From assembly GCA_009193035.1 (NCBI GenBank), contig SWDT01000016.1, forward strand, positions 310,001 through 374,000: a stretch of DNA of 64,000 bases, given 5' to 3'. Shown one piece after another: positions 6,801-37,500 of this stretch. Each line of letters opens with the position of its first letter. Position 1 is the first letter of the stretch. A model generated the notes under the pieces. That model was not told where the DNA came from. It was given only the letters and a program-made list of their open reading frames with translations, and searched no databases. Source of the stretch: Halicephalobus mephisto. Its lineage: Eukaryota; Nematoda; Chromadorea; Rhabditida; Panagrolaimidae. The position numbers and the translations under genes were made by a program.

Positions 6801-9800
6801 AAACTGTATTTTAGCCAGATGGTAGGTAGTTTGACAGACAATAAGTGCCAAGTTTTTATTTTTGCTTCAGGACATGTTTTAATTTTTCACTGAATAAATA
6901 TCAGAACGAAAATATTAAATTTTAGAATTTATTTTTTATATTAAGAAAAAAATTACAAAATCATTTTGATTGAAAAATGTTATTTTTTAATTTTTGACTT
7001 TTGACACAAAAATTAGAAATTTTTGAAATTAAATACGTATTTTTTCTGCTTTTTTGTAAATAATTTTTGCTGCAAAATAATTCTTTTATTTTTATTGTTT
7101 CCCATAGCGAAAATTGATCACCTACTTTGAGACCACTTCCTCGACTTTTTCTCACCTCAGATGACTCGTTCGTAAAAAATTTGACATCTTTCGAAATTTT
7201 TGCTCTTTCGAAACTAAGGTCAATCGTGGGAAATCCTTTATCCTTTCGCGTTTCTTCTTTATCCTATTGATTCTGTTGATTTAGGTTTGATTCCTTATTG
7301 AAAAAAATGAATTAAAAATTTTTTGATTTATTTGAGAAAAAAAAATGTACGTATTTATGGAACAAATGGAACAACGTCGCGGGTCGAATCAAAATTCTGC
7401 TCTTCATGTACCCCATCATCATCATCATCATCATCATAAGACGAAACATCATAGTCATCATGAAGGAGGTCCTGGAACGAGTTCAAAGTACTTGATCCCG
7501 ATTAGTCCATCTGGTGGAAAAGTTAGAACTCATGTTGTTTATCCTGATGATGTGGTAATTTCTAAAAAGGAAGATTCCAATGTGGTTTTGCGACGAAGAC
7601 AAAGTTCAGCTGTTTCTAGAACGAATGTAGAATCTCAGAAAGAAAAAAGACTTTCTCATCAAAATACCCCTCAGCATTTGCATGCATTCCCGAATCTTCC
7701 TGCTCCAGTTTCTTTGTTTACAGCGGAGAATCCTACAGGGATTGTTAGGAAACAATCGATCGTGACAGGACCACCATTACCCTTGAACAATCCTCCTCCT
7801 ATGCCGAGGAGACCCAGCGGAAGTGACTGCCATTCCACTCCGACCTCGCCCATCTTCATCAGGAAATCCAATGTTGCTCAAAGTCAGAATAACCTCAATC
7901 AGAACCCTAGACCCCGCGGAGGGGTGAGGGAAGCCATAATGATGAGAAGTAAATCTCAATCTCGACCGATACTCAAAGAAGAAGCTGTTTATGACGTCAT
8001 TCAACATCCTAAACTTCGTGGATTAGCTAATTCTCCTCCTAAAAATAAAAGAGCCGTAATTCCATCTGGAAAACGTTCGGCTCCATCTACACCGGTTTCA
8101 CAAAGAAAATTGCTTATGTCTTCTAGTATTTCTAATCTTGTAAAACCGAAATTTCGTCTTCCATTGTCTACAGATAATTCAGTTATTTTAGAAATTTTTG
8201 ATCCTGAAAAAAATGATAGAAGAAGAGCAATAATTGAAAAATTAGCTAAAATATCTGCTTATGATGAAATTGGTTTTGATCTTATTCAACAAGAATTGAG
8301 ATCTTTTGCGCAATTAAAAATTTTACCTATTGGTCGTTCTCGAAAAATGCAAATTGCTGATCTTCCTGGAATTGAAGAATGGCATTCAAATTTGATTATG
8401 AAAAAACATAAGTTGAATAATTTACAGAGACCAAAAAGAAAACCATTGCAAGAGTTTTACAATGACGACGATGCAGAATTGGAAGGTTAGTTTAGTATTA
8501 TTTATTGTTACATATATCCAGAGATATTTCAATATATGAATAGTGATTTTTAGTTAATTAGAAAAAATTCCGATATATAAAAATAATTCTTTTCGAAATT
8601 TCGAAAAACTTGTATATCAAAATTTTTAGAAGAACTTATATCAGTTTTTTTGAAGAACTTATATATCAAAACCTTTTTGAAAATACTGAATAACCTTTTT
8701 TACATGGTTTTCAATATACTATTAATTGATAAACGCTTGAGATGATTTCGATATATCGGTTTTTTCGATAAGTATTATTTTATAATCATTCAGACTTTTT
8801 TCTAATTACCCTTTTAATTTTTATAAGAATTATTCTCACTTGTCCTTTTCAGCTCTCTCTAAAATTGTCGATCCGAATGCCCCTAGACCCTCAGGAACTA
8901 TGATAACTCCAGCTAGAGGAGATTTCCCTGTCGCCATTGCTTCTAATGGAAGAACTCCGACATCTCCTAAATCCCTTGACTCTCTGCTGGAACGATATGC
9001 TCACATTCAAGGAAAGTCAAATTGCGCAGTAGTTTTGGACCATTCTGGGAAGTTGTCTCATTCTTTGACTTATGGTGAGTTTTATTTTTTAAAATAATTA
9101 TTGATGTATTAATTTCAGCAAAACTGCATTCTCGAGCACTCAAAGTGGCTCACATGCTTCAAACAAAGATGGTTACTGTTCATGTTCCTAATTCTGGAAA
9201 GGAAAAAGTGCCATTATGTATTCCTGGAGATCGAGTGGCTCTAGTTTATCCAAACACAGAACCTCTGGCGTTTTTGACTGCTTTCTATGGCTGTATTATT
9301 GGAGGAATGGTTCCTGTTCCTGTGGAAGTTCCGTTGACCAAGAGAGATGCTGGTTTGCAACAATTTGGATTTCTACTAGGTTCATGTGGAGTCCGAGTAG
9401 CTTTGACTTCAGAATCTTGTCTGAAAGGACTTCCAAAAGCTGGAAACCAAGCTAATTCAAATAGTGGTAATCAGAATGGGATGAGTAATGGTAACTCGAG
9501 TTATCATTATTCTACTAATGGATCTACAGGATCCGGAGGAAGTGGAAGTGGTTCTTATTTGCCTTCCTCGAATACCTCCACAAGTCCTCATGATGTTGCT
9601 GATTTCAAGGGCTGGCCTAGAATGCAATGGATTGTTACAGAACATTTATCCAAGGTTGGAAAAGATTGGAAACCTCAATCTGCTACAGCTAATAGTGAAA
9701 CAGCTTACATCGAGTACATTACGGACAAGGAAGGCAGTGTCAAGGGAGTTTGTATTTCTAAAGAAGCTATGCTTTCTCATGCTAGAGCTATTGTGGCTGC

Positions 9801-14428: not shown

Positions 14429-15121
14429 ATGATTTGCATTGGAAGGTTTTCCCTTCTTCTCTTTTTCCTCTGTGGATTAACGAAGACTGTAGATGCTGCT
14501 TCAAATGTAGCTGAATTGACAACATGCTTCAAAACTTTTCTTAATTCTACTGGGTATCCATCATTTCCACCATCTTTTAATGATTATGAGCGTTGGATAA
14601 GGAATGAAATTTATTTTGGTCTCAGTAACCTCTGTGACGCTCAATCGAATCTTTCCACATGCATAGGATCAAACAGTTTGCTTACCAGTGAGAATTTAGC
14701 TACTGTATTCAATGCAAGTAATGCAGATGGTTTACAATTCTTGATCACATATTACCAATTGCAGTACGGCTGTGGAGATCCTATATACCGTAAGTTAAAG
14801 CAATGATTAGTCGTATTTTGGGAAGGGGAAATTAAAAAATCGAGAAGTTATTTTTTTTTCGGAATTTCAATCAAGAGAAATGCGATGTTCGTCAAAAATT
14901 AATAAAACTATCTCTAAATTGTTGAAAATATCACATATAATTTGTTATTTATTGTTTAAAAAAGTTTTTGAATGCGTTTTTCTTCTCATTATAAAAATAA
15001 GATCATTTTTGGCAAATTTGATAGAAAATCTGATTGAGTTATTTTCACAACTTGTAATTATAGTAATCTTGTGTCTTTTTAGAATTAAGCAATGCAATTG
15101 GCTGTGACCCATACATTATTT

Positions 15122-15139
15122 CTCGATGCGATTTACCAA
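15122..15139. repeat. Target-site duplication, left copy
   Basis: The 18 bases CTCGATGCGATTTACCAA are repeated exactly at 18213-18230 on the other side of the retrotransposon. Removing the element plus one copy restores exon 2 at 58 bases, the length in copy B. Confidence 0.92.
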
Positions 15140-18100
15140 TTTAATTTCAATTTTTCAATTTTATTCCTATTTCGCACTAAAGCAACAGAAAAATTTAACA
15201 ACAGCAACAGTCTTAAAAATTTTGACTAGATTATCAGCTTTCTTTTTCTTTGCTCCATCTTTTGAGTTGGCGGCGTGCGTAGGAGATAGCACGGGTGGAA
15301 GTTGCAGCTTGAGTTGGGGGGAGTTGAGTGATGTCGAACTCAGTTCTTCTGGCTCCCAATTCATCTGCTAGATCATCTGTCCATCTCGTCCTTGGTCTTC
15401 CTAGTGGTCTGGACTTCGTCGGTCTCCAGAATGTGGTTGTCTGCGCCCAGTCCTCTCCTTCTGATTTGCAAGCTTCGTTGCAAATTTCCATTTCCTCTTG
15501 AGAGCGCTGGTCATCCAGTCCGAAAGGCCAGTTCTCTTCCTCACTATCTTGTACTGACTGATATCTAGTCGGATTCCCAGTATAGCTCTTTCGATTCTTC
15601 GTTGGCCTCTGATGAGTTTCATCGCCGACGTTTTCGTTAGTGCCCAGGTCTCACATCCGTAGAGGACCGCTGGTTTGATGCACTGCTCGATTAAACGTCG
15701 TTTTAGGCTCATCTCAATCCCTGGTGCTTTGAGGAGGTGTCTTAGTGAAAAGTAAAGCTTTCGGCCCGCGCTTACTCGCTTTGACACTTCTTGACCGTGG
15801 TCTCTAGGCCAGGATACCGTCTGTCCAAGATAGATGAACTGGGTAACCCTTTCTATTGCTGAGCCATGTGTCAAGAGCACTTCCTCTCTTAGGGCGACCT
15901 TGGCGCATCCACTTTGTCTTCTCGAAGTTGACGTTCAGTCCGACACGTTTCGAGGCATCAACAAGATCGTCTAGCATCGACTTCATTGTGTCTAGATCAT
16001 GGGCTAAGAGCACAATGTCGTCAGCATAAGCCAGGTAACTGAGAATTTTGCCTCCAACATTTATGCCACGATTCATCCAGTTTATGGATTTCATCGCATG
16101 TTGGAGGACCAGGATGAAGAGCAAGGGGGATAGACAATCTCCTTGTCTTACACCTTTCTCAGTTCTAAACTCCGCTTTTCTGTTGCCGACTTCAACTTCA
16201 GATCTTCCGTGAGAATAGAATAGCTGGATGACTTCAATAGTCGCTTCCTGGCATTTTATTTCACGGAGCGCTTCCCAGATGGCGTCGAAGCTAATGCTAT
16301 CGAATGCTTTTTTGAAATCAACAAAGACTCCGTAAAGGTTCATGTTGAATTCATAGCATTTTTCCGCCACTTCGTTCAGCGCATGGATCTGAGTGATCGT
16401 CGAGAACTTCTTGCGGAACCCAGCTTGTTCTGCTGGTAAGGCATGCATTCGGTCGGCTTGTGATTGGACTCGTTCTTTGATCACTTTAGCCACCACCTTG
16501 TATATAGAGGAGAGAAGGGATATCGGTCTGTAATTCCCGATGTCCTTTCTGTCTCCTTTCTTGAACAGCAGGATCGTGTTCGAGATTGTTAAGTTCTCTG
16601 GCACGATTCCGGTAGAGGTTATGCTGTTCAACAAGGTTTGCACTGGACCTGCGAGAAGGTTGCCCGTGCCTCTCAGAGCGGCACTTCGGACTTGATCCCT
16701 TCCCGGCACGGTCCTTGCCTTACTGCTAGACATCGCCCTCTCCAGTTCCACCTTCTCAAATGTGAAGTCGATAGGGGTTCTTGGAGGGGGAAGAGGGCCG
16801 TCTGCTTTGTACAGATCGCTATAGAATTCACTGATTCGTTGCACCGCTGCTGACTCAATGTCTACCGTATCATTTCCATCACCAATATTGATAATGGAAT
16901 GTCTTTGGTATCTTAGAGCCTGTCTGCCTTGGCGCAGCCGGTTTTTCTTAATAGCGTCTTGTATGACACTATGGTGGCGCTGTCGTAAGTCTTCTTTCAA
17001 GACTTTTCGCAGCAGTTTGCAACATTCAGTGTATTCTATCTCTGGTCTACCCGTTGACCTGTTCTCCTTGAGTTTCTTACGTAGCTCAATTAGGAATTGA
17101 GCACGTGGAGTCACTTTCGGAGGGAGGGGGTCATAGTTTGTCGCCTTTCTTGTCGCTAGGTTCACAACTTTAACAATGGCTGAGTAGTCATTGTTCGGGT
17201 TTCCAGTGGATCTGTATTCTCTGAGGCCCTCGGACATGGCTTGCTTTAGAACATCTTTGTTAATTGTCTGAATGCCTTTGTGTGGTCTAACTGACTGTCT
17301 TTCGATAGCCAGTTTCAGCGAACACCTGACAAGACGGTGATCGCTGTTTCCGGTAAAACCGTTAACCACACTGACATCTTTGATCTCTTTGATGTTCTTG
17401 GATAGAAAGTAGTCGATCTCGTAATTGCATCCGAGATTCGACTTCCATGTCCATTTTCGCCCTTTCCTTTTCTTGAAAAAGGTGTTGGCTATCCTCAGAG
17501 AATTTTCCTCGCAGAAATCTACCAGCATCTGGCCTCTTCTGTTCCTTGTCTGCCCTGCAGCGTGTCTACCTGCACTCGACTCTCCTGCTTGACCAGGTCC
17601 CGTTGTCGCGTTAAAGTCTCCCATTACCAATAGATGTTTTTGGCTCCGGGAGAAAATAACACTTTCGAGATGTTCCAGGAAATCCTCGAACTCCACGTCC
17701 TCACGCCCAGAGTGAGGAGCGTGGACCTGGATTAACCTCATCTTGCACTGTTTGAGCTTTACGATCAATTCTATTATCATGTCAGAGTGATAATAGCACT
17801 TGATCTGGGGGGTCAGCCATGTCGGAACATAAAAGCCGACTCCCCTGTGGGTTGGGCCTTCCGGATTTCCGCAGTGGTATAAAGTATAACCACTTTGGAG
17901 CGCCGTCTGACCCTTCCCCGATTTCTTCAGCTCAGAGAGACCGATAATGTCGAATCGGATTCTCTTAACACAATGCTCGAACTCGGTTAGTCTCTCATTC
18001 AGGAGCGAGCGGACATTATATGTACAAAGTTGTACATGACCTCTTCCAATCCGTTCTACAGAATCGCTACGTTCTACTCCCGCGACAGATTCTGTAGAAC

Positions 18101-18212
18101 GGTGCTCCCGAGCTTCCCCCAGACACGCCCCCGCTAATCGATGACGTGTTGGTTGCGTTTTTCGTGAGAGCGTGTTAAACACGACCGCTCACTAGAACGC
18201 AGGAAGTGAGAA
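15140..18212 (-). mobile_element. RTE-type non-LTR retrotransposon inserted in exon 2 of copy A
   Basis: A 3.07 kb element on the minus strand, flanked by an 18-bp target-site duplication. Its 3' end (left side) is an A/T-rich low-complexity tail, as expected for target-primed reverse transcription. It encodes an apurinic-type endonuclease followed by a reverse transcriptase with the YADD motif, in the order and size of RTE-clade elements (about 3.3 kb). Two frameshifts make the present copy inactive. It is much richer in GC than its AT-rich surroundings, consistent with recent arrival. Confidence 0.92.
15234..18182 (-). pseudogene. RTE endonuclease-reverse transcriptase polyprotein, frameshifted
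   Basis: The frame runs on the minus strand from about 18182 to 15234. The N-terminal endonuclease shows YNVRSLL, IIGLSE and VMGDFNATTG (about 18000-17610). The reverse transcriptase shows NYRPISLLSSIYKV, FVDFKKAFDS, VRQGDCLSPLLF and LAYADDIVLLA (about 16530-16010). The C-terminal region has VLYGCETWALT and GRPRTRWTDDL, typical of RTE elements. The frame is broken at about 15895-15905, after NFEKTKWM, and again at about 15430-15490; the three pieces overlap end to end as one ancestral protein of about 980 residues. The upstream start is uncertain because the open frame begins with GTG near the element edge. Confidence 0.9.
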
Positions 18213-18230
18213 CTCGATGCGATTTACCAA
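18213..18230. repeat. Target-site duplication, right copy
   Basis: Exact second copy of the 18-bp sequence at 15122-15139. It is followed immediately by the last exon-2 base and the donor GTAAAT. Confidence 0.92.
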
Positions 18231-19165
18231 AGTAAATTTAGTTTTATAAAAGTCATGTTTGAAGTCAATTTCAGTCCTACTGATGGTCCAACACCACTCT
18301 CTTGCCCCGTCGCGAACTCCACATGCGTATCCATCAGTTGCGGCAGTATACCCGCCTATGTTCGCTGTCAATGGGAATCTATATATTCTAATTACACTAA
18401 AACTTGTAACGACTTCGGTAATTGTAATTCTTATAATGCTCTCTGGAACAAGACTCTTTGTTTCAACAATTATGCTAAGGCTTGGGGACTTTCACCCAAC
18501 GAGTTTCCTCTGACTTCCAAGCATTCTAAAAGCGTATCTTCTACCTTATTCATGCAATACTTCTACACTTTTGCTGTTGTAAGTTAAAGCAATATGAAAA
18601 CGGCTTGTCAACGCTTCTCGGATTTCTACAACTGCATTGGAGGCACAAATGATGCCTTGAACACTTACAATTTGTCACAAATTTTCTACATCAATAGTGC
18701 AGTACAAAGTAATTGGATAGAAGCCTTCCAGGAGCAGGACTTTATTTGTAAAAACGGAATGGATGGTGGGTGTCGTTGGTGAATAATGGTAATGAACACA
18801 ACTTCTATTTCAGGCATGAAAGAACTGTTAGAATGTAATTTTGATGATTCGCTCTGCAGTACCATTCAAGGTTCTTGCAACGAGACACTTAATAAATACA
18901 ATTGCCAGAATCAAATCATTAATGACAAGTGTGGTAATGTTGCTGCTTATTATCAATGCAATGCTAATAATTTTGTCATAAAACAAAATCTGTTGTGCGG
19001 AAACATGTCTCTAGACTGTAGTCAATACAACTCAGGATCTACTGTTGGAATTGAATGGGACTGCTGCTGATCCTTCCTGTTCTGTTGGGTTTCTTCAATT
19101 AAAGTGTCAGATTTCGACTGTAAGTTGTTAACTCGTAAATTTGTTCTACAATAAATTGCTTAATA

Positions 19166-20096
19166 TAGAAAATGAAGAAAAAGTTCGGGCTCGAACTTAT
19201 AAAGGAAAACAAAATTCCCCTAAACTAAATCCTTAAAACATATCCTGAAGTATAATTAGAGATCTGATCTAATAACATAACATATTGCATTTCTAATCTG
19301 TCGCTTTTTGCGCCTTTAAAAGTTATCAGATGCTTCGGTATTGCAGTAGCTGTGGTCCGTAGCTTATTCTGAGGAATTTAATTTCACTCTTTTATTAAAG
19401 CTGTTTTGAAAGAATCCGAACCCTTGTAGGGTATAGCGAAGACTTTTCTCTATAAGTATCCCAGAAACCAAAATCCATCAAGCTTAAATCCAGCAAATTC
19501 ACTGCTCATTTTTTAATATTCTGAAGTAGACCGTATTTTTTCATAGTCCGTCTCTAATTTTCTTCGCATGATATGCCGATGCAGAGTTCTGTTGAAAATT
19601 CAAATCCCAGTCTGTGAAGTACCGTTGAGCTCAAGGTTTCACAGTATGTCGTGGGATATATCCCTGATCGATATTGGTCTTGTAATTTACAAAAGACAAG
19701 CAAGATATCTTAATCGGAGAAAATACCGCTTTAGATCATCACAAATTTTGGACATGTAGCCATCTGAACGATCTTGTCTATGAAATTGATAGCGAAAATA
19801 TTGGAAACTAAGACCTTGTTGTGCTTGCTAGTAAAAAACTAACTTAATGGTCAAAAATTGTTCGTCAATCCAAAGCATGTTGAGGTGCGAGTCAAATAAA
19901 AAACAATGATTTCATCGTGTTTCTGTTTTGATCTTCATAATTTATTTAAGATTAAAAATTGGAAAGTGATTTTGACATCATTGTGAAGCTTTGAACAGTA
20001 ACTTCACAATCGCTGCCAAAAGCATTGGGGTTTTTTATTTCTTTTAAAAAAAAATTTATGTTGTTCCACGTGCCCGAACTTTTCCCTCACCCTGTA
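19166..20096 (-). mobile_element. Degenerate mariner-like DNA transposon
   Basis: About 930 bp absent from the matching place behind copies B and C. The ends are an imperfect inverted repeat: the right end read on the minus strand is ACAGGGTGAGGGAAAAGTTC, and the left end begins AAAATGAAGAAAAAGTTC. On the minus strand near 19606-19562 a decayed reading gives FQQNSASAYHAKK, matching the mariner transposase segment around its second catalytic aspartate (here Asn). Stops and frameshifts fill the rest, so it is a dead copy. It inserted in a TA-rich site just after the poly(A) signal of copy A. Confidence 0.75.
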
Positions 20097-20570
20097 CAAA
20101 TATGTTTTTAGTAAAGTTTTTTACCATCTCTTAAAGGTTTTGAAGGCTGTGCGGAACTCTGATTTTTATATCAGGAATATTTCTCAGTTTGTGATTAATT
20201 TCTAACATATTTATAACATATAATTTGCATAAAGAGGTCTTTGAATCTTAGAAATTCTGATATGCTTTGTGGTTTTTGCCTCTGCTGATTTCCTTTGATC
20301 AGGTGATTCTCAACCTGAGTTCCTTATTCTCTTTGAATAGAGATCAAGAATTTTCTAATTCAGAGACTATGAAAAGCAATGTTGGAATCGGTGCAATTAT
20401 CGCCTGTGTGAAGACTAAAGCTGAGCAATTAGATATTCTCTTCACCTTGATTGCATCTCAAATTTCTGTGATAACCAGCAATATGAATCGACATATTTAG
20501 GTCTAAAGTCACTGAATACGACAAAGGTGTACTTTTTATGAGTTTGACGCAAAATAATCAGCCATATTAT
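20097..20570 (+). repeat. Duplicated 3' flank behind copy A
   Basis: Homologous to 22650-22990 and 25200-25700. It includes a 77-codon open frame (20267-20500), which is most likely a by-product of recent duplication because the diverged block behind copy D has lost it. Confidence 0.65.
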
Positions 20571-21013
20571 TGAGACAAACATTAAAAGTACTGATTTATT
20601 TTTGTTAAAAGTACTTCTTGTCCAAAATGATGAAAAAATCTAAGAAATATGTACAGTTTAATTAAACCATCATATATCTTGGAATTTTCGCATAGATCAT
20701 AATGTTTCTAAATTAACTTATCGCTGTTGCTAAGAAAGCAATTTTTTTAATTAAGTAGTTAAACTGTTTTTGTCTATCAACATCCTGTAGTGTATAAAGT
20801 ATTATGAATTTTATGGTGTTGTTTATTTTATATTTTTGAGATCAGTGTTCATTAAAGCGAGTAAAGTACTCTTCTTGCGAGGGTTATCAGCTTTCCGCAG
20901 TTGACAAGCTCGAAGGTGTGGCAAAGGACTCCTTTCTCAATTCTACGATATGCTACGGTCGTAAAAACGATTCTTCTTCGAATCTGTCTCATTCATTATT
21001 TTTATCTGTTGCC
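20571..21013 (+). repeat. Duplicated 5' flank of family copy B
   Basis: The last 180 bp are nearly identical to the flank of copy C. The shared core GAGATCAGTGTTCATTAAAG begins at about 20837, followed by GAGTAAAGTACTC, whose GAGT/ACTC arms are inverted. This is the candidate core promoter or leader of the family. Confidence 0.6.
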
Positions 21014-22588
21014 ATGATTCGCGTTGAAAAGTTTTCTCTTCTTCTTCTCTTTTTCCTCTGTGGATTAACAGAGACTACAGATGCTGCCTCAAATGTGGCT
21101 GAATTGACAACCTGCTTCAAAACTTTTGTTAATTCTGCTGGGTTTTTTCCATTTCCACCTAACATTGACGATTATCAAAATTGGATAACGAATAATATTC
21201 GCGAAGATTTGAACGATTTTTGTAATGCTCAGTCGAATCTTTCCACATGCATAGGATCAAACAGTTTGCTTACCAGTGGGAATTTAGCTACTGTATTCAA
21301 TACAAGTGATGCGAATGGTTCACGATTCCTGGCTGCGTACTACCAATTACAGTACGGTTGTGGAGCTCCTATATACCGTAAGTTAAAGCAATGATTAGTT
21401 GTATTTTGGGAAGGGGAAATTAAAAAATCAAAAAGTTATTCTTTTTCGGAATTTCAATCAAGAGAAATGCAATGTTCGCCAAAAATTAATAAAACTATTT
21501 CTAAATTGTTGAAAATATCACATATAATTTGTTATTAAAAAGTAGCTTTTTAAAATAATGTTGCTTTGAACCTAGGAGGAAAATGAAATTTAATAAATTT
21601 CACTAATAGATCTCATGAGATACTTTCTACAGTTTGTGAATATACTAATCTTGTGGTCTTTTAGAATTAAGAAGTGCTATGAATTGTGAATCATTCACTA
21701 CTTCTTCCTGCTATTTACCAAAGTAAATTTAGTTTTGTAAAAGCCATGATTGAAGTTAATTTCAGTCCTGCCGGCAGTGCAACACCACCGTCTTGTCCCA
21801 CTTTGAACTCCACATGCGTGTCCATGAAATGCGGCAGTATACCCGCCTATGTTCGTTGTCAATGGGAATCTATATATTCTAATTACACTAAAACTTGTAA
21901 TGACTTCGGTAATTGTAATTCTTATAATGCTCTCTGGAACAAGACACTCTGTTTCAACAATTATGCTAAGGCTTGGGGACTTTCACCCAACGAGTTTCCT
22001 CTGACTTCCAAGCATTCTAAAAGCGTGTCTTCTACCTTATTCATGCAATACTTCTACACTTTTGCCGTTGTAAGTGAAAGCAATATGAAAACGGCTTGTC
22101 AACGCTTCTCGGATTTCTACAACTGCATTGGAGGCACAAATGATGCCTTGAACACTTACAATTTGTCACAAATTTTCTACATCAATAGTGCAGTACAAAG
22201 TAATTGGATAGAAGCCTTCCAGGAGCAGGACTTTATCTGTAAAAACGGAATGGATGGTGGGTGTCGTTGGTGAATAATGGTAATGAACACAACTTCTATT
22301 TCAGGCATGAAGGAACTGTTAGAATGTAATTTTGATGATTCGCTCTGCAGTACCATTCAAGGTTCTTGCAACGAGACACTTAATGAATACAATTGCCAGA
22401 ATCAAATCATTAATGACAAGTGTGGCAATGTTGCTGCTTATTATCAATGCAATGCTAATAATTTTGTTATAAAACAAAATCTGTTGTGCGGAAACATGTC
22501 TCTAGACTGTAGTCAATACAACTCAGGATCTGTTGTTGGAATGGGACTGCTGCTGATCCTTCCTGTTCTGTTGGGTTTCTTCAATTAA
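21014..22588 (+). CDS. Family copy B: cysteine-rich, GPI-anchored-type secreted protein
   Basis: Exons 21014-21377, 21665-21722, 21766-22256 and 22305-22588 join in phase to 398 residues. Residues 1 to about 24 are a signal peptide (FSLLLLFFLCGLTETTDA). The C-terminus is a hydrophobic tail (GLLLILPVLLGFFN) after a small-residue region, the pattern of a GPI-attachment signal. In between are about two dozen cysteines and many N-glycosylation sequons. The protein seems to be two copies of one module: CIG, NL..VF, YQLQYGCG and CGSIPAYVRCQW in the first half, and CIG, NLSQIF, FQEQDFIC and CGNVAAYYQCNA in the second. It loosely resembles nematode DUF19 (T20D4.11-like) extracellular domains; this is tentative and the function is unknown. 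ATG 21014 is chosen because it begins the signal peptide in all copies. A candidate poly(A) signal is at 22636-22641. Confidence 0.85.
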
Positions 22589-22649
22589 AGTGTCAGATTT
22601 CGATTATAAGTCGTTAATTCGTAAATTTGTTTTACAATAAATTGCTTAA

Positions 22650-22990
22650 TATATAGATGTGATTTTAGTAAAGTCTTGCCATTCCTTAAAGATTTTGAAA
22701 GCTGTGCGGAACTCTGATTTTTATATCAGGAGTATTTCTCAGTTTGTGATTGATTTCTAACATATTTACAATATTTAATTTGCATAAAGAGGTCTTTGAA
22801 TCTTAGAAATTCTGATATGCTTTGTGGTTTTTGCCTCTGCTGATTTCCTTTGATCAGGTGATTCTCAACCTGAGTTCCTCATTCTCTTTGAACAGAGATG
22901 AAGCACTTTCTAACTCAGAGACTATGAAAAGCAATGTTGACACCGGTGCAATCATCGCCTGTGTGAAGACTAAAGCTGAGCAATTAGATA
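22650..22990 (+). repeat. Duplicated 3' flank behind copy B
   Basis: Same block as behind copies A and C, but it breaks off near 22990. There it joins directly to sequence like that near 13838 upstream of copy A, which marks a duplication or recombination junction. Confidence 0.6.
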
Positions 22991-23591
22991 TATTCGTTGA
23001 AGATAATTGAGTCTCAAATTCTTATGATAACTAGGAACAAATCGGCGCGTCAAAGTAAAAAATTAATTGATAGAGGGAAGATTTTTTATTTCTTCTGTTT
23101 CTATCGAGCTCCTCATGAAGAAATAAACTTTATTATTGAAGCAAACGTTAAAAATTTGATTAATTCTCTTTCACAGTACTTCTTGCTGAAGTGGTGAAAG
23201 GAAATTTATGAAATATGTACAGTTTAATTACAATATCATACATCTTTGAATTTCCACATGTTAGAGTCTCGTTTGTAAACGAGATTATCATTATTGTGAA
23301 GAAAGTTATATCCTCTAAAATGAATCTTATTGAATTCTTTTTGTCTATCAACATCCTGTAGTGTATAAAGTATTATAGAATTTTATGGTGTTGTTTATTT
23401 ATATATTTTGAGATCAGTGTTCATTAAAGCGAGTAAAGTACTCTTCTTGCGAGGGTTATCAGCTTTCCGCAGTTGACAAGCTCGAAGGTGTGGCAAAGGA
23501 CTCTTTCCTACAAAGGGTTTCTACGATATGCTACGGTCGTAAAAACGATTCTTCTTCGAATCTGTCTCATTCATTATTTTTATCTGTTACC
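22991..23591 (+). repeat. Duplicated 5' flank of family copy C
   Basis: The first half resembles the flank of copy A (CGAGCTCCTCATGAAG shared). The last 180 bp are nearly identical to copy B, with the shared core at about 23409, 183 bp before the ATG. Confidence 0.6.
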
Positions 23592-25142
23592 ATGATTCGC
23601 GTTGAAAAGTTTTCTCTTCTTCTTCTCTTTTTCCTCTGTGGATTAACAGGGACTGTAGCTGCTGATTCTAGCGGTAACTCGCCGACAGACTGCTTCAAAA
23701 CCTTTACTCAATCCCTCAATCTGACATTTCCACCAAATATTACCTTTTATAGCTATGCTATAAACCGCTACAGATCTGGGAACTTGAGTTATCTTTGTGA
23801 AGCCCAGACAAATTTGTCCCAGTGTCTTGGATCTAAGAATCAGTCCCTCACTAACAATGATATGAAGTCTATATTTAATGCAAACGACACAGTTAGTGTA
23901 CAATTCTTGGCCTACTATTTTGAACTACAATATGGCTGTGGAGCTCCTCAATATCGTAAGTCTTAAAGTGATTAATCATAGTTGGAGAAGAGAGTGTTAA
24001 AATCAAATAATGTAATTGAAAACTGTTTTTGGGAATTTTCTGTCTTCAATCAGAAAGATTATCATTTTCTTCTAAAATCAATGAAAAACTTTGAAAATCT
24101 TGTACAAAATTGATCACTTGTAATTGAACAGATTTTTTATAACATCTTCAACATAAGGGTAAATTCATGTTTTGGAGAGTTCGAAAGATCTATTTGGGTC
24201 CATTTCTCGATTTAAAACTACAGTAGCCTCGTCTTCTTTTAGAGTTAAACAACGGTATTGACTGCTGGGAGCACTCCTATATGTGCTATTCGCTAAAGTA
24301 AGTTAATTTTTGCAAAGGTTTGATTTAACATTAATTCCATATATATTAATAGGCCGACAAATGGCAATTGTCCCACCGTGAACTTTACATGTATGTCCAA
24401 CTCTTGTGGGCTATCGACCTCCTACATTGGTTGTCAATGGGACTCCATATATTCACGTTACACTATGAATTGCAACAACTACCCTAGCTGTGATTCTTAC
24501 AACACTGTTTGGAATCAAACGGTCTGTTTCTACAAGTACTTTATGGGCTGGGGAGTACCCTCTGATATATTTCCTATGGATTCCACTAGATTTCAATCCT
24601 ATTTCCGCACATACGCCATCGGAAGTCAAAGCAATTTCAACGCAGCCTGCCAGCTATACTCGGACTTGTATCAGTGCATGGGAGGAACAGATGATTTCCT
24701 GAGCACCAGCAATCTTACGCAAATTCTGACTATCGATAATAACACAGCTGCTAATTGGATAGTCAATATCCAAGAACAGAACTTTGTTTGTAAAAACGGA
24801 ATGAGTGGTGAGTGTTATTGCTAAATAACAACAATGAAATTAACTTTTATTTTAGGTTTGAAACAGTATATGGAATGTAATGATAAATATACAACATATT
24901 GTAAAACCCCTACATCCTCTTGTAACGACACAATCAACATAAAAACCTGTGAACATCAGTACATTAACGACAAATGTGGTAAGACTGCTGCTTATTACCA
25001 GTGCAATGCTGATGCTCTCTCCATGAAACAAAATCTGTTGTGCGGAAACATGTCTCTAGACTGTAGTCAATACAGTTCAGGATCTGCTGTTGGAATGGGA
25101 CTGCTGCTGATCCTTCCTGTTCTCTTGGGTTTCTTCAATTAA
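23592..25142 (+). CDS. Family copy C: cysteine-rich, GPI-anchored-type secreted protein
   Basis: Exons 23592-23955, 24243-24297, 24353-24807 and 24856-25142 give 386 residues with intact phases. The signal peptide is nearly the same as in copy B. The mature first module is clearly diverged (for example NLTFPPNITFYSY instead of the B sequence), whereas the last 40 residues, including GNMSLDCSQY and the hydrophobic tail, match B almost exactly. Both half-repeats are present: C(L/M)G with YGCG and GCQW in the first half, and CMGG, NLTQIL and CGKTAAYYQCNA in the second. The divergent middle with identical ends suggests either gene conversion of the ends or fast evolution of the exposed part. A candidate poly(A) signal is at 25190-25195. 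Confidence 0.85.
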
Positions 25143-25199
25143 AGTGTCAGATTTCGATTATAAGTCGTTAATTCGTAAATTTGTTCTACAATAAATTGC

Positions 25200-25649
25200 T
25201 TAATATATAGGTGTGATTTTAGTAAAGTTTTTTACCATCTCTTAAAGATTTTGAAAGCTGTGTGAAACTCTGATTTTTATATCAGGAGTATTTCTCAGTT
25301 TGTGATTGATTTCTAACATATTTATAACATATAATTTGCATAAAGAGGTCTTCGAAACTAGAAATCCTGATATGCTTTGTGGTTTTCATCCCTGCTGATT
25401 TCCTTTGATCAGGTGATTCTCAACTTGAGTTCCTCATTCTCTTTGAATAGAGATCAAGAATTTTCTAATTCAGAGATTATGAAAAGCAATGTTGGCACCA
25501 GTGCAATCATCGCCTGTGTGAAGACTAAAGCTGAGCAATTAGATATTCTCTTCACCTTGATTGCATCTCAATTTTCTGTGATAACTAGCAATATGAATCG
25601 ACATATTTAGGCCTAAAATCACTGAATACGACAAAGGTGTACTTTTTAT
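25200..25649 (+). repeat. Duplicated 3' flank behind copy C
   Basis: Closely matches 20097-20570, including the 77-codon frame (25377-25610). Amino-acid differences between the copies are not biased to conservative changes, so coding function is doubtful. Confidence 0.6.
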
Positions 25650-26290
25650 GAGTTTGACGCAAAATAATCAGCCATATTATTGAGACAAACATTAAAAGTA
25701 CTGATTTATTTTTGCTAAAACTGCTTCTTGTCCAAAGTGATAGAAATTCGAGAAATAGATGCAATTAGATTAAAATACCATCTATCTTGAACTTTTCATC
25801 TACATTGATATTGAGTTTGTAAAGTTACTTCATCACTGTCATCAAAAAAGCGATTTTCTCTAAAGAAAGTAATTAAACTGATAGGAACGGCGATGATGTT
25901 ATTAATCCAGAGAGGGTGCTAACAATTTTGGCAAAAACTTGTTCAATTCTATTGCTTTCTGTCTTTTATATTGCACTTTGTAAGTGTCAAAGAGTCGAAA
26001 TAAACAAGAAATCAGGTTTTCGAACAAACTTCTTTTTATTTATCAATACCTCGTATGAAATTAAAGTTTAGATTTCCCATAATATTGTTTATATATTCTG
26101 AGGTTAGTGTGTACCGATATAAGTAAAATGCTCTTCTTCCGGAAGTGATCATCAATTTTTCCTGCATTTGAAAAGTTCTTAGGTGTGGTGGGAGGGTTGT
26201 CTTTTTCACAAAGGATTTTTCTGATAAGCTCTGATCATAAAAGTGATTATTTTCAGAATTTGTTTCACTCATTATTTTTTATTTCTTGCT
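25650..26290 (+). repeat. Duplicated, diverged 5' flank of family copy D
   Basis: The part near the start codon resembles copy A (GGGTTGTCTTTTT and CTATGATTTGCATCGG) rather than B or C. The promoter core is diverged, beginning at about 26098. Confidence 0.55.
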
Positions 26291-27822
26291 ATGATTTGCA
26301 TCGGAAAGTTTTCCTTTTTTCTTTTCTTCTTTTTCTGTGGATTGAGGGAGACTGTAGCTGCTGATTCCAGCAAGAACTCGTTAACGGACTGCTTCAAGAA
26401 CTTTACTACAGCTATCGGGCTCTCATTCCCGCCAAAGATTAATGCTTATATAAACACCATAAACAATCAAGTTGAGAATAATTTTGGCTTTCTTTGTGAC
26501 TATCAAGTAACTTTGACCAAGTGCATCGGATCTCCTTCTCAGCTTACTAATGCCAATATAATCAAAGTATTCAACATAACTGACACTGATGCCAAGCAAG
26601 TTATAGCCAAATATTACCAACTGAACTATGGTTGTGGACAACCTCAGTACCGTAAGTCTTGGGAGTAATTAATGAGTTTGGAAGGGGGATCTATAACTCA
26701 TCAATGCGATGGAAGATCACTTTTTTGGACTTTCAGCTAAGAGAATCATTATACTCATTAGAAATTAGGGAAAAAGCATTTAAATCATTAAAAAGTTTAC
26801 ACAACAGTTGTAATTTTTCATCTAAATTGGCTTTTATAGTTTTTTATAAGATCGTTTTGTGTGATGTTTGATGGAAGAATTTAATTAAACTTTTTTCTAA
26901 CTTGTAATTACAGTAATATTGTACTATTTCAGAATTGAACTACGCCTTCAAACATGTCAACAATGATTTTGGTGAATGCATCTTAGGGTAAATTTAATTT
27001 TGTAAAGGTTTTCTTTAAAATTTATTTCATATCCTTTGGTAGGTTTGATAACATTTGCCGAAACACAAATTACACATGCTTTGCCAACAATTACGGAAAT
27101 GCAAATGCTTACGTTTATTGTCAGTGGAATTCCATAGGTAACAAATATACCAGCTCCTGTAGTATTGCTCCCAATTGCGATGCATATAAGACTTCCTGGA
27201 ATATGTCAGCATGTTTCTCCAATTATTTTGCGGCCTTGCAAGTCCCACCTGTTGATGCCTTTAGCAATCCTGACTCACTTCTCGATTATTTCCACACTTA
27301 TGCCATTGTAAGTCAAAACAACATGAACACCATATGTCAAGCATACTCGGACTTCTATAAGTGCATCGGGGGAACAGATGATGCTTTTAACACTGAAAAT
27401 CTTTCGCCAGTAATAAACGACTACAGTACCACCATGAAGTCGTGGATTTATGCTTTCCAAAAACAAAACGTTGCCTGTAAACATTCACAGAGTGGTAAGT
27501 GTTTTGTCAAATAATGATAATGAACGAAATTCTTATTTTAGATATTCAACAGTACATAGAATGCAATTCTGTTAATATAGATTTTTCGAAATCACACAGT
27601 TGCAATTCTACAGTCAACGTTTACAACGCTCGTAACCGAGTGATTAATGATAAATGTGGGCAAGGTGCTGCTTTCTATTCGTGTGATCTGAACGTTCTCA
27701 ACATGAAATATAATACTTATTGTACAAGCAATTATCCAGATTGTAGTCCATACAACTCTGGATTTGTTACTGGAATCGGAATGCTTTTGCTTCTACCTGT
27801 TCTCCTGGTTTTCTTCAATTAA
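26291..27822 (+). CDS. Family copy D: cysteine-rich, GPI-anchored-type secreted protein
   Basis: Exons 26291-26651, 26933-26987, 27043-27494 and 27542-27822 give 382 residues, with the same intron positions and phases as the other copies. The signal peptide is MICIGKFSFFLFFFFCG and the tail is GMLLLLPVLLVFFN. This is the most diverged member: the first module has CIGSPSQLT and YQLNYGCG and the next part AYVYCQW; the second half has CIGGTDDAF, NLSPVI and CGQGAAFYSCDL. Spacing of cysteines and the four-exon structure are kept, which argues for selection on the fold. Likely a cell-surface or secreted protein; the partner is unknown. Poly(A) signals are at 27874-27879 and nearby. Confidence 0.85.
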
Positions 27823-30489
27823 AATACTTGATGTTAACCATAGAGTAAACTGTTGTTTTTTCATTTATCTTAAAATAAATTTAAAGAGAAATAAACATTT
27901 TGTCGAAATTTTTTACTTTTTCTCAAAGACAATTTGGATAATCATTCGAAACCTTAACTTCCGTGTCAAAAATATTTCTTAGTTTGTGATTTATCTCTAG
28001 CGTATTTACAGTACTTCATTTACATAAGAAGGCATTTTTAATTCACAAAAACTCAATGTTTTTTGACTTCTAACTCCAGCGATTTTTTCTGGCGTGATAA
28101 TTTTCAATTTGATTTCTCATTTCTCTCCATATAACTTCATTAGAAAACTTTAAAAATCATGTTAGAAGCAATAAAACTATTATTGTTATCAGAACAAAAA
28201 ACAATCAACATGATCTGCTTCTTTAAAAAATTTGAAATTTATCATATCTATTACTCAATGGTTATAAAACCTTTGTTGATTTTCCAATAATAAATATGCA
28301 TTTGCATTCTTCTCATCTATACTAAAGAGATTAATTCACCGACAGAACTTAAATGATCTCTCTTAACTGAAGAGTTTCAACCATTATGTATATAGTACTT
28401 ACAATGAAAAACATTTTCAACTATGTTTTTGTTATTATTAGCAATTTGTAGATTTCCTACTTTATACGCTATAAGAAAATAATAAATTTTGTGCAAAAAC
28501 TTAAATATAGATCTATAACTTGTACTGTACACTTCTAAGAAGTGGCAAGAGATGGGTCAAAGAAGCAGAATAATTATAATTAATTTGTACTTGTAAGCTT
28601 TTTTGATTTTTGTGCGAAATAGGAATTAAAGCAAAAGTAAAAAGGAGTGTCAAATACCATTGTTCAGTTATCAGTAAGGATTGGCGGGTAATTAGACGAA
28701 AGCCGTTGAATTTTCATGCGTTAGGAATTTTAAGATAAGAAGGACGGAAAAAAACAACGTTACAAATAACATAGGGAAATAATCAGAGAAAAAGTTACTT
28801 TTTGCGTATGATTATTTTTCAGCTTAAATGAGTTCCTCTGATTCCACAGTAGGTGTAGAACAGATAATTTCTTTTATATCTTCGTCAATCCAGAAATTGA
28901 TTGAAATTTTCTAGAAAAAAATAAGATCAATAATTTGATTATAATTATCAGCAAAAGTTTGTGAAATTCTCCTTTTTATTATTTTCATCTACAACACACT
29001 TTTTTTATTATTAAGGGAGAAATTCCTTGGATTTTAATATTCCAGAAAAAAATAAACTTATAAGTCAAAAGTATCATAGTAATAGCAAATCCGATGGCTT
29101 ATTTTTATCACATTTTACGTTTGTTATAGACCTTTGATGAAAAAAGATGCTCTTTGTTCACATTTGAAACTGAGTGATTAAATCCATTACTGTTAAAAAC
29201 TGTTACAAAAATAAAAAAAAATTTTTTTGTTATTGCAGAAGTGTAAGTGTCTTTGGCAATTAAAAGATCTTTTGCTGACTAGGAATTCCTGTATTTTCGA
29301 TCAAAGTATTTGCTGTGATTTAGTGTACGACGAATAGGGAGAGATATACTTGAATCTTAATAGAACAAGTCACAATCTTTCGTAGAATTATTTTATTAAA
29401 CGACAACACAACGGTACAAATCTCGTAGGATTACGATGGTTGTGCTAAGACCATCTAATCAGGGGAGTGCCACCTCCATGGCGTCTCCTTAAATCCCAAC
29501 AGTATCAACAAGTCATTTTATCTTAATATTCGAATAGTCGGTTTATCAGTTTAATCATCTGTATTCAAAAAAATCCTGAGTTTCATATGTGAAGCAACTT
29601 TTATCATCAACTAGAGAAATTATGGTCAAATTCTCTTTGGTTTTATTGCCTCAATACCAGATCGGATGATCAATAATGAAACACGTTAAATTGCTAAGAA
29701 AGCGATGTTTGAATTCAACTGCAAATTTTAAATAATTATAATGTGGTTATGAAACATAATTTTGGCGAAATAAAAAACATAAATATATGTATACTAACGA
29801 GAAATTAACTTATCAATTCTGATCACGCAGGGGTCTGAATTTCGTCAAAGCTTTCTTACTGTGGAAGATTGTTTTATGTAAGAAGTTTTCTAAATATCTG
29901 AAAAAGATAAAATCAATAAATGGAAGATCAGGCGAGTATGGTGGATGAGATAGTTTCCTAATCTGGTTCATATTTCGCACTGTGATTTATGAAATGTATA
30001 AATTTTACAATGAAGAAGAGTAGATCCTTTTATATCCCTCAATACCATGAAATTTGTGCAACTTCTGGTGTATTTTTTCTCGTTCTTTGTAGTAATGTTC
30101 TGTCTTGTTTATAAAAACGAAATCAATTCTTGTAATCGTCGTCTGATGTTTATGATCTCTTTGTTTTTAAGTACGAATAAAGATAATATGGTTAATCCCT
30201 GGAAAGAAGGATCTATAAAGTTATTTTTAGAAAATAAAGTAGACTAGACGATGTTGATGATATTGCCTTCCATTTCTGTCACTTCTGCAATGAGTTCGAA
30301 AATCAAACCAAACAGTAGCTACAATCCTGGATGATAGATCTTCGAACGGAACACTTGCCAGTCTCGGTCTTTTCGGTCTGAAGCTGTCATAGTCCTACTT
30401 TTTTGTAAACGAATTTGGGATGAAAATTAAATTTTTCACCTGTGCTTTTCAACCTAAACTTTTCCACTTCTGCAATTGTTTAACTAAAA
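27823..30489. other. Gene-poor stretch between copy D and the GPCR
   Basis: Starts with a decayed version of the family 3' flank (to about 28200). The rest is AT-rich with only short frames. A more complex patch at about 29280-29520 (CGTAGGATTACGATGGTTGT, then GGGGAGTGCCACCTCC) may be a transposon or LTR remnant, but I could not identify it. Confidence 0.5.
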
Positions 30490-31732
30490 ATGTTACCTGG
30501 TTGGTGCTTTATTCTGATGCTTGTCTACGGTATTCCTTCAGTACTCCTCTATCTGATACTCATAATACAGTTCCAGTTATCCTCAATGAAGGAACTTTTC
30601 CAAGGAGCGTTTTTCAAGATCAGCACAGCTCTCGGTGTGGTAGATATTTTGACTTTCGTTGTTTCTTATCCGAACTTGAAGATGCCTTTGTGCACCTTGT
30701 TTGCGGACTTTTACTTGCATGCAATACCGGGATTTTGGGTGAATATTTGTAATTTCCTCGCTTATTACTTGAACTACACAAGGGGATATTTATTAGTAGC
30801 CAATGCAGCAAACAGATTGACAGCATTGATGTTTCCACATAAGTATGATTATGTAAGTTTTGTTGATTGCTGTTCAAAAGTAAATCCAGATTAGATAAGA
30901 TAAATGAAAGTGAATTTTGCTCTAGGAGAACTTTTTACAATAAGATGTTTAAAAAGGAATCAATTCAGAAGTTTCCAAAAAGATAGAAATTCCATTTTAT
31001 TTCTGAACTACTTTTTTTAAGTCATTGGATTTCATAACAATTTTCTATTACAGTAACACTAATATTAATATCAATTACATTTTAATATTTTCTTTTCAGT
31101 ATTGGTCCAAGTTTCTCATCCCCGTCCTTGTCATCTGCTTCCTCCTTGGACTTCCCGGCTCCTATCACGTCCTTCTAGCTACTCCCCACATTTACCCCTT
31201 CAGTCTCAGCTCTAACGACAGCTTCATCTTGACCTCCACCTTCACCCTTTACAAAGTCAGCAGTTCTTTCAATGGCGCTATCCAAGCTTTCGTCACAGCT
31301 ATGGTTTCATTGGTACTCAACACAGTTTCTCTATATTTATTAAGAAAAACGATAATTGCAAAAACGAAGAAATTACCCCGGACTCAGATTAAGCTGTTTT
31401 TTATTACTTTGTCAGATTTCTTTATTGAAATGATTTGGACTATTCATCAAATTTGGGCTTATACATTCGTCGTCAGAAAAGATATGTATAATCCGATTTT
31501 TGATATTTTGTACTTGATAGCACCTTGGCTATCTGATTTCCTTTCCTTGACGAGGCCGTATATAATCCTCGCACTATGCAGACAAGCAAGAACAATCTTC
31601 ATCAATGCCGCAGAAGCAGAAAAGATGATTAACATGCAAAGTTCGGCAATCCGAAATTCTGCCATACCTTCAGTTAGTAAAGTCACTCCGGAAGTCAACA
31701 ACTTCTTTAAATTCAATTCCAAAGGAAAATAA
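30490..31732 (+). CDS. Nematode serpentine chemoreceptor-like GPCR (Srg/Srv type)
   Basis: Exons 30490-30852 and 31100-31732 join in phase 0 to 331 residues. Seven hydrophobic segments can be followed. TM1 is FILMLVYGIPSVLLYLILII, TM3 ends in a short RLTALMFP loop in the place of the DRY region, TM4 follows YWSKFLIPVLV, TM5 is near FVTAMVSLVLNTVSLYLL, and the tail is short and polar. The IPS motif of TM1, the NRLTA..FP motif and the size fit the Srg superfamily of nematode chemoreceptors, with Srv closest from memory. Its usual role would be chemosensation in ciliated neurons; no ligand can be inferred. A candidate poly(A) signal is at 31791-31796. Confidence 0.8.
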
Positions 31733-34598: not shown

Positions 34599-37500
34599 TT
34601 AAGAGGCAACAGATGTAGATTTCTTCTTCTTTTGGGATTTGCGTTTCTTCTCGTCACCGCACACGTACTCGACAAGTTGGGGGATTTGCTTGTTAGCATG
34701 GTAATTGTCAATGTGCTGTTGGGATCCGATGAAGGTGCCGCAGATGAAGAGATAAGGCATTCCTTTGTGGGCAGTCAATTGTTGAAGATGACGTTCTACT
34801 GTTTTCGGTTTGTCAATCTTGTCGACGTAGAAAGCGACAAGTGGAAGTCCATATGTCTCTCGAAGAAGTGTTTCGGTTTTCTTCGTTTCTGGATTCCTAG
34901 AATCCACATAGAGAACAGCAGGAAGTTTGCGAATTTGCTGAGTCAGGGCTTGGATGGATGTCGTAGATACTGGACGAGATGGTGAAGGCCGAGTGACTTC
35001 TCTGTTAATGTACTCTGAAGTAGTCGGTGGGAGTGTTGGTCTAGTCGGAAGGGCAGTTGGTGGAGCGGCAGTTTGAGTAGGGTGGATGTAGACTTGGGGT
35101 TGGGGTCTTGGTTCAGGGATGATTATATGGGGAGCAGGTGCGGGTTGATGTATAGGTTGAGGTTGTGGTTGGGGTTGTGGTTGAGGTTGGGGTTGATATA
35201 TAGGCTGGGGTTGAGGTTGGGGTTGGGGTTGAGGCTGGGGTTGTTCAACTACAGTGTTACTTCCACTATAATCAGGATAATAAGGCTGAGGAGCAGCTGT
35301 GGGTTGCTGAGGAACTTGATAAACCGGATCCTGAGGCTGGACAGCAGTTATCGGTTTAGAGGGTTGCTGAACTTGAAGATGGTAGTTGGTGTTGTATCCG
35401 GTCTGCCATGGATTAAAGTTGCTTTGTCCCGAGCCCGCTTGGACGTTGTAAGTCCCCTGGATCTGAGGGCTGATCGTTCCTTGGATATGAGACTGAGTTT
35501 GTGGCTGAACTCCCGCGATATAAGGATTCTGCGGCTGTTCTGCTGGCATCTGCGGCTGTGGAGCATTCACAGGTGGAGGAGGGAGCTTAATACCGTACTG
35601 CTTCTGGATCATCTCCAAGTACTGAGCGTACTGTTGAAGCTGATTGATGTCGATAGTAGGCTGAGGAGTTGTTTCGGGTTCAGGAGGGGGGGTCTGATAT
35701 CCTGGATGAGGGTAACTTCCATAATTGACCTGTTGCTGTTGTTCTGGAGCAACATACGGCTGCTGATGGAACGAATCAATTTGAGACTGTAGTTGAGACT
35801 GGGGTTGAGTCTGGGGCTGAGGTTGGGGTTGGGGTTGATAGGTCTGAGGAGCCGGATTGACTACTTGTTGCTGGAAATTGTTTGATGTCTGCGGTTGTGA
35901 ATCCACAGTCCCAAAAGGATAAAAGTTTTGGGCAGTCTGTTGTGGAGATCCATAGTTAGTATTACCAACTTGCGGACCAAAATTCTGGGGTTGCTGACTT
36001 TGTCCATAGTTATTTTGACCAAAAGTCGGAGTCTGCACAGAAGGATTACTGTATCCAGTCCCAGAATTACTGTATCCTCCATAATTATTCTGTTGTTGAT
36101 GTCCTTGTTGCTGAAACAAGTTAGCATTCGTCTGAGTCCATGTATTTGCATCGAATCCATTAACGACTCCAGCAGATTGTTGTTGAGGAATCTGAGGTTG
36201 GATTTGGAAAGGATTCACAGCCGGATTTTGTCCATATTGTTGATTATTGAAAGATCCATAGTTGTCTCCATTTTCAATTCCTAAAATTTCTTTTATTTAA
36301 TTTATTTTTCAAAGCCAATTGTCATAAGATCCACTACCAGATTTCCCACTAAACAGAGCCAAAAGGATTTTTCTTTATTTTCGTGAAAATCGTTATTGTT
36401 TGGATTTTGACAAAATTTGACAGAAAAGCCAAATGCGGAAGCAACTGTCAATAGTTATTCCCCAAGGTACTCAGTGATGAAATACAATCAAGAATCCAAA
36501 ACAAAGTTCATTATTATAAAAAGTATGAAGGTAAATAAAATTCAAGAACCTCAAGATACGTATAAATTTAAATGAAAACAATAGGGTTTCATATATGACT
36601 TTTAACTCTAAGAAATATCCATATATGAAAACTTTTTTCAAAGTCCAGATCTCAGATGGAAATAATGAGTCTGCATATATGAAGTTTAATTTATAAAAAT
36701 GTTCATATATGAAGTTTAATTTATAAAAATGTTCATATATGAACTATTATTTCTAAAAATATTCATATATGAACTATTATTTCTAAAAATGTTCATATAT
36801 GAACTATAATTTTAAGAGAAATTATATGAAGACTTTTTTTAAGTCTTGGTTTATGAATAATCTCCAAAGTGCATTTACTTTTGCTTTATTTTTATGAATA
36901 AGCCCATGTTCGCCCTTTTAATCCTGTCCGATAAACTAAAGATGTTTTTTCACCTCTGAATCACCAGATTATCGGTTGGAACAAAGACTTTAGAATTTAG
37001 CATTTATTGGATTGCTCCCGTAAGAAGCAAATAGGATAAGCAGCTTGTCCAAGTTTCGTTATTGTTTTTCAATGTTTGATTTGAATTTTGAATTTAATTC
37101 AAAAAGTGAATAAAACAAACTTGTTCTTGACAGATGAAGAAATTTTCCTTGTTCCCAGTCTTGTTGCTGATTGACCTCCAGAAGGTGTCAATCGCACTCG
37201 AAAATGTAAATAAACTTTCCAGTTAAAAGTTCGCTTGGATATTGATCCGAAAAAATGGATTTGTGATCCGGAGAAAACTTCGAAAATAAAGTACTTGCTG
37301 CGGATTCCATTGGTAATCCACAGAATTTTCGTAATTTCAAAAACAACCAAGGTATCTAAAAAATTCTGTTTTCTATTTTTATCCATTTTGTAGTAAAAAA
37401 ATTGGATTACAGTAATTTCCATCATCTACAGTAACCGAACAAGATTATAGAAAAATTTCAATTTTCTAAGAAATATTTAAAATCCCACAATTTTTGGTCT

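Follow-up and report, generated by a model that had tools for sequence, protein, structure and literature searches.

The DUF19 domain (PF01579), which carries about 12 conserved cysteines, defines a large nematode family whose function is not known. In Caenorhabditis elegans, 51 secreted DUF19 genes have been described, 14 of which are up on infection (from the accessible part of PMC3534327). The portion of PMC8410859 available to us reports 11 clustered DUF19 genes that are over-expressed in microgravity when HDA-4 is missing, one T20D4.11 overexpression line that is stunted, and more than 80 DUF19 paralogs, with no knockdown phenotype reported there. Here we describe a tandem array of four gene copies, A–D (positions 14429–27822), in a 64,000-nucleotide stretch of contig SWDT01000016.1 of the nematode Halicephalobus mephisto (the window, meaning the whole stretch analysed; contig C216 of the searched genome of 59.9 Mb and 331 contigs), and we argue that its live copies each encode a protein with two homologous cysteine-rich modules that are distantly akin to DUF19. 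A reading made from the sequence alone had proposed a four-copy tandem family at this place, and the array is indeed there: copies B, C and D (21014–27822) are intact, each having four exons, GT..AG introns and the same intron phases 1, 2 and 1. Proteins B and C are 53% identical, B and D 43%, and C and D 44%.

The two halves of B, C and D are, on strong support, homologous. Cysteines number 25 in each of B and C (12 per half and one in the signal peptide) and 22 in D, where the signal peptide holds two and each half 10. When the two modules were aligned locally with each other, B, C and D scored 112, 128 and 120 (z 9.0, 9.4 and 9.5), and none of 500 shuffles per protein with the cysteines held fixed reached these values. 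When matches between cysteines were scored zero, the score was reached by 8/500 shuffles for B, 0/500 for C and 4/500 for D; beyond the cysteines, then, C shows a clear half-to-half signal, and B and D taken singly show a weaker one. At the level of profiles, module 1 against module 2 reached a probability of 95.1% and a score of 54.0 over 157 columns, compared with a mean of 13.6 and a maximum of 24.5 among 100 column shuffles in which cysteine and gap columns were fixed. Independent support for the homology comes from the matching position of introns 1 and 3 of B, C and D, both of which fall at the sixth residue past the fourth cysteine (Cys4) of their module and in phase 1 (as calculated from the lengths of the exons and the places of the cysteines); module 1 has an extra phase-2 intron with no counterpart in module 2. 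The two-module architecture that had been predicted for these proteins is supported.

The DUF19 connection is supported through paralogs and through one true family member elsewhere in the genome. By the curated cut-off, B, C and D are outside DUF19. Two of their paralogs, C110 and C134b (named, like the others, after their contigs), score 18.7 and 19.9 bits over positions 19–139 and 15–140 of the 157-position DUF19 profile, both below the cut-off of 23.2, and module 1 of C110 alone scores 16.3 bits; C70a, C70b and C134a gave no DUF19 match in the Pfam search. The C230 gene lies above the cut-off at 30.1 bits, and a profile built from 14 modules scored 35.9 against this one DUF19 target sequence (probability 71.7), with 100 cysteine-fixed controls at or below 19.7, so that homology of the modules to a true DUF19 member was found in the profile comparison. 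Nine of the 12 common cysteine columns are shared by the C230 gene, the last exon of which lies outside the alignment; all 12 are present in both modules of B and C, and 10 in each D module. The N-terminus of B, C and D reads as hydrophobic and signal-peptide-like, and a nematode setting, as expected of DUF19, is indicated by genes for spliced leader 1 (SL1)-like RNA in the genome and by an Srg chemoreceptor in the window. Considering the sub-threshold scores of the paralogs together with the C230 profile match, we judge from sequence that B, C and D are distant DUF19-like relatives that fall outside the Pfam family as it is defined.

The paralogs came from a genome search with protein C, which gave 21 matches at E ≤0.1, including the window's own exons and, among others, C110, C70 and C134; a second query added C261, and their spliced models were made by eye. 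A third query weakly added C41 (locus L061, C41:32000–36500, reverse strand from 1600; E 0.179), a very diverged possible one-module relative in which the cysteine spacing of exon 1 is alike. C110 is a three-module protein of 562 residues with an anchor-like tail, and C70a, C70b, C134a and C134b each have one module and a hydrophobic tail. The mid-module phase-1 intron at Cys4+6 recurs in both modules of B, C and D, in modules 1 and 3 of C110 and in C70a, C134a, C134b and C261; it lies at +5 in C70b and is absent from C110 module 2. Among the modelled genes, the phase-2 second intron is found only in module 1 and in C70a and C70b. Within the C110 gene (locus L023, C110:27500–37000, reverse strand 4506–6282) the two introns are identical at 44/44 bases, and in ungapped comparison 285/364 bases agree before the introns (signal peptide included) and 189/217 after them. 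This intron identity and the agreement of the flanks suggest a recent exchange or duplication around symmetrical phase-1 introns, and such introns would permit modules to be added in frame. Two additional cysteines, one ahead of Cys1 and one lying between Cys3 and Cys4, mark all seven one-module genes examined (C70a, C70b, C134a, C134b, C261, C41 exon 1 and C230) and are absent from the nine modules of B, C, D and C110. For C70a and C70b, the spacing from Cys3 to the second additional cysteine is 15 residues, not 6–8, and that cysteine may have a separate origin.

In our trees the halves are not each other's sisters. Module 1 of B, C and D groups with the one-module C70 genes (92/95 and 95/94 in the two trees), and module 2 with the three-module C110 (100/100 and 99/99). 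A tree constrained to hold the six halves in a single clade, a group chosen for the approximately unbiased (AU) test after the first tree had been seen, was rejected (p-AU 0.029); one group of the six halves plus C110 was not rejected (p 0.102). The alignments and trees did not include C41, alignment A2 lacked C70b, and the second tree omitted C261 for its long branch; between alignments A3 and A4 six badly aligning pieces were removed and others were shortened. Since the tree grouping and the AU rejection favour two old module lineages, a simple internal duplication was set aside. These groupings place the parting of the halves before the B/C/D duplications and, probably, before C70 and C110 split off as well; they fit a joining of two module lineages as well as an old duplication with later loss. 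The proposal of an internal duplication older than the gene duplications therefore survives as to the age of the repeat, which predates the copies, and proves too simple as to how the repeat arose.

Homogenised ends and old middles distinguish the array at the DNA level. Between B and C, 184/194 positions agree in the 200 bases upstream, 69/75 in the first 75 coding bases, 115/120 in the last 120 coding bases and 187/198 in the 200 bases downstream, so that the non-coding flanks (94–95%) are as alike as the coding ends. Agreement in between is 162/286 for the rest of exon 1, 169/272 (62%) for intron 1, 291/455 for exon 3, 34/48 for intron 3 and 100/164 for exon 4 minus its last 120 bases. The synonymous rate (dS) for B/C amounts to 0.06 over the signal peptide; it is 0.79–2.24 or saturated across the middle, and 0.35 and then 0.11 in the final two windows. 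Given flanks as alike as coding ends and a middle dS near saturation, the ends look homogenised at the DNA level. Copy A is 95% identical to B from exon 3 through the 3' flank (950 columns; A 18218–19167), 80% in intron 1 and 71% upstream; between D and B the end pattern is weak (5' flank 67%, 3' flank 63%). Different copy pairs thus have different shared blocks, introns and flanks included, which indicates that the likeness of the ends is maintained by exchange between copies and not just by constraint on the protein. The linker (columns 126–150) is the most diverged part, with nonsynonymous rates (dN) of 0.77, 1.91 and 1.26. Positive selection of the middle was considered and rejected on a whole-gene dN/dS of 0.32 for B/C, 0.33 for B/D and 0.32 for C/D; the middle reads as old and purified, with no measured excess of amino-acid change. 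The sequence-only reading had taken conserved ends around diverged middles as the look of a recognition family; the pattern is present between B and C, and with flanks at 94–95% and dN/dS near 0.3 it is weakened as an argument, not being in itself a signature of recognition. More generally, an arms race need not be assumed wherever a variable middle lies between conserved ends.

Copy A is a pseudogene, with a retroelement like a long interspersed nuclear element (LINE) in exon 2, a premature stop in exon 3 and a frameshift in the tail in exon 4, so the earlier statement that all of A–D share four exons fails for A, which has no working four-exon gene. An 18-bp direct repeat (15122–15139 and 18213–18230, by eye) bounds the element, and the long minus-strand open reading frame of the latter (15804–18185) matches RVT_1 (E 1.1e-36) and Exo_endo_phos (E 1.4e-10).

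The live proteins appear to combine a signal-peptide-like start with a tail resembling a glycosylphosphatidylinositol (GPI) signal. Read from the sequence, B, C, D and C110 each have a signal-peptide-like start and a short, hydrophobic C-terminus whose last 18 residues are uncharged; the mean hydropathy of these residues is 2.15–2.28 in B, C and D. C134b has one charge there, and C70a, C70b and C134a have two. A GPI-like tail, once ascribed to every copy, is thus seen in B, C and D and is lost from A, where the tail is out of frame. The description of the proteins as heavily glycosylated by motif was not confirmed: sequons in the mature proteins number 9 in B (shuffled mean 7.9), 12 in C (7.1) and 6 in D (7.1), the numbers in B and D being what composition gives, and 61/2000 shuffles hold as many as C. 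Outside the window, sequons are in excess in C110 (16 vs 8.1; 5/2000) and C134a (7 vs 3.1; 41/2000).

The modules are predicted to be helical and disulphide-rich. Among the 14 aligned rows, cysteine columns 136 and 177 are both lost in the same four (D module 2, C70a, C70b and C134a), perhaps in three events, C70a and C70b being sisters, and columns 123 and 186 are both lost in D module 1 alone; these paired losses predict Cys6–Cys8 and Cys5–Cys9 bonds. An AlphaFold2 model of C110 module 2 (19 rows, contiguous reads only) reached a mean predicted local distance difference test score (pLDDT) of 84.1 and a predicted template modelling score of 0.64, and has nine helices and no strand, helix 96–102 being mostly of low confidence. 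An AlphaFold2-type model of C exon 3 has a mean pLDDT of 62.9, with residues 1–46 (the module-1 part) below 50, and is usable over the N-terminal part of module 2 only (pLDDT of 62–85 in ten-residue blocks), where the helix order is as in C110 module 2.

With somewhat more confidence than doubt, we suggest that the array (A being dead) encodes surface-anchored, ligand-binding proteins of two cysteine-rich modules with DUF19-like kinship. The proteins would sit on the outside of the cell, anchored via the GPI-like tail, where the paired helical modules may bind an extracellular glycan or protein of microbial, dietary or self origin, and their tandem arrangement might raise avidity. They may be an anchored counterpart of the secreted C. 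elegans DUF19 proteins, some of which are induced by infection or stress. Exchange of promoter, signal-peptide and tail DNA between copies, with the ectodomains kept apart, is strongly supported by the sequence comparisons above. Several results weigh against this proposal. B, C and D matched no Pfam family at E ≤10 (most matches weaker than about 0.1 are removed by the filters of the tool), no DUF19 match was found for C module 1, C module 2, C110 module 2 or C261, and a Foldseek search of solved folds gave no match (best E 2.1). The one-module C261 was modelled without a hydrophobic tail, and two charges each leave a transmembrane reading open for the tails of C70a, C70b and C134a. C134a also has one cysteine more, 13 in all, an odd number that paired loss alone does not explain. 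Finally, a dN/dS of about 0.3 over the whole gene shows no hint of arms-race selection. Local relaxed or diversifying change may nevertheless have occurred, since in some 25-codon windows dN is near or above dS, as in B/D columns 201–225 (0.80 vs 0.79) and 226–250 (0.42 vs 0.39) and C/D columns 301–325 (0.55 vs 0.57), with others saturated.

Among the alternatives, a dosage array deserves most attention, although we consider it rather improbable: gene conversion would keep the ends alike, and redundant, slowly changing ectodomains would serve in nutrient binding or as a surface coat, with no recognition. It would account for B/C ends and flanks that are 92–96% identical, for the dN/dS of about 0.3 and for the death of copy A, by which one copy could evidently be lost, but a protein identity of only 43–53% between live copies suggests separate ligands. 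A reproductive or eggshell role, in which the modules form a structural glycoprotein scaffold of the chondroitin-proteoglycan kind, is unlikely; the C230 DUF19 protein does score CPG4 (PF15481) at 27.7 bits (E 4.2e-6), below the cut-off of 32.7, and C70a at the noise level of 9.5 bits (E 1.9), but B, C and D have no CPG4 match at E ≤10. We are a shade more doubtful still that recombination restricted to the promoter/signal-peptide and anchor-tail ends sets varied two-module ectodomains in a fixed frame and so yields diversifying self/non-self surface receptors, the mid-module phase-1 introns additionally letting modules be added or lost in frame. Host-facing parasite effectors like the HYP proteins of cyst nematodes are the least probable of all: these have the same outline, with ends about 95% identical around a different middle, but, as far as the available part of PMC11228951 describes them, their diversity is allelic at single-gene loci and their motif arrays lie in one exon, whereas the middle here is two cysteine-rich modules spread over four exons, with dN/dS near 0.3 and an anchor-like tail, and no hypervariable motif array in one exon. 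A surface protein that would bind an extracellular ligand leads on balance.

Coordinates of the array are collected below; the end of copy A is the place matching the B stop, read by eye.

Features of the array (positions in the window)
Feature	Position	Strand	Details
Copy A, pseudogene	14429..19102	+	exon 1 14429-14789; exon 2 from 15083, interrupted; exon 3 18275-18765; exon 4 from 18814
LINE-like retroelement within copy A exon 2	15140..18212	-	ends by eye
Homogenised 5' end of B	20777..21088	+	upstream DNA and signal-peptide codons, 92-99% identical to C
Copy B, two-module gene	21014..22588	+	exons 21014-21377, 21665-21722, 21766-22256, 22305-22588; 398 aa
Module 1 of B	21098..21931	+	residues 29-196; cut by phase-1 and phase-2 introns
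Intron 1 of B	21378..21664	+	phase 1, in residue 122 = Cys4 (C116) +6; from exon lengths and cysteine places
Module 2 of B	21935..22522	+	residues 198-377; cut by a single phase-1 intron
Intron 3 of B	22257..22304	+	phase 1, in residue 305 = module 2 Cys4 (C299) +6; from exon lengths and cysteine places
Homogenised 3' end of B	22469..22788	+	last 120 coding bases 95.8%, next 200 bases 94.4% identical to C
Hydrophobic uncharged C-terminus of B, GPI-signal-like	22532..22585	+	sequence reading
Copy C, two-module gene	23592..25142	+	exons 23592-23955, 24243-24297, 24353-24807, 24856-25142; 386 aa
Copy D, two-module gene	26291..27822	+	exons 26291-26651, 26933-26987, 27043-27494, 27542-27822; 382 aa

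Beyond the array, the window holds a chemoreceptor exon of Srg/Srv/Sru type (30484–30891, Pfam match), followed by a frame (31007–31729) without a Pfam family match, and a Gln/Pro-rich protein on the minus strand (34599–36296) whose end is glutaredoxin-like by eye. Locus L023 also carries a short Cys/Gly/Asn repeat protein (8214–8792, minus strand). The SL1-like RNA genes of the genome amount to 47 matches from 50 scored candidates, none above the curated score; one carries what we take to be the 22-base SL1 leader, and some form divergent pairs about 400 bases apart by eye (for example C216:68960–69464, C249:48317–48818 and C125:12091–12592).

Within DUF19, a large family whose function is so poorly defined, tailed relatives with one, two and three modules in one genome make a small, tractable set for testing module number, disulphide pattern and surface location. 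The tandem B, C and D resemble the 11 DUF19 genes clustered on C. elegans chromosome V (in the part of PMC8410859 at hand), and the window and C110 proteins differ from DUF19 in having two or three modules and a GPI-like tail. They are also larger, at 382–562 residues here vs 140–220 in the C. elegans DUF19 table (as given in the accessible part of PMC3534327), and the modules of B, C, D and C110 are without the extra cysteine pair that the one-module genes of the genome, C230 included, possess. The likeness to CPG4 lies in the below-cut-off score of the C230 protein, B, C and D being unmatched, and that to the HYP effectors of Globodera in near-identical ends around different centres, with allelic variation and a one-exon motif array setting the latter apart (PMC11228951, in the part available). 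The array is, in sum, a modest variant on a known nematode DUF19-like family and not a new kind of system.

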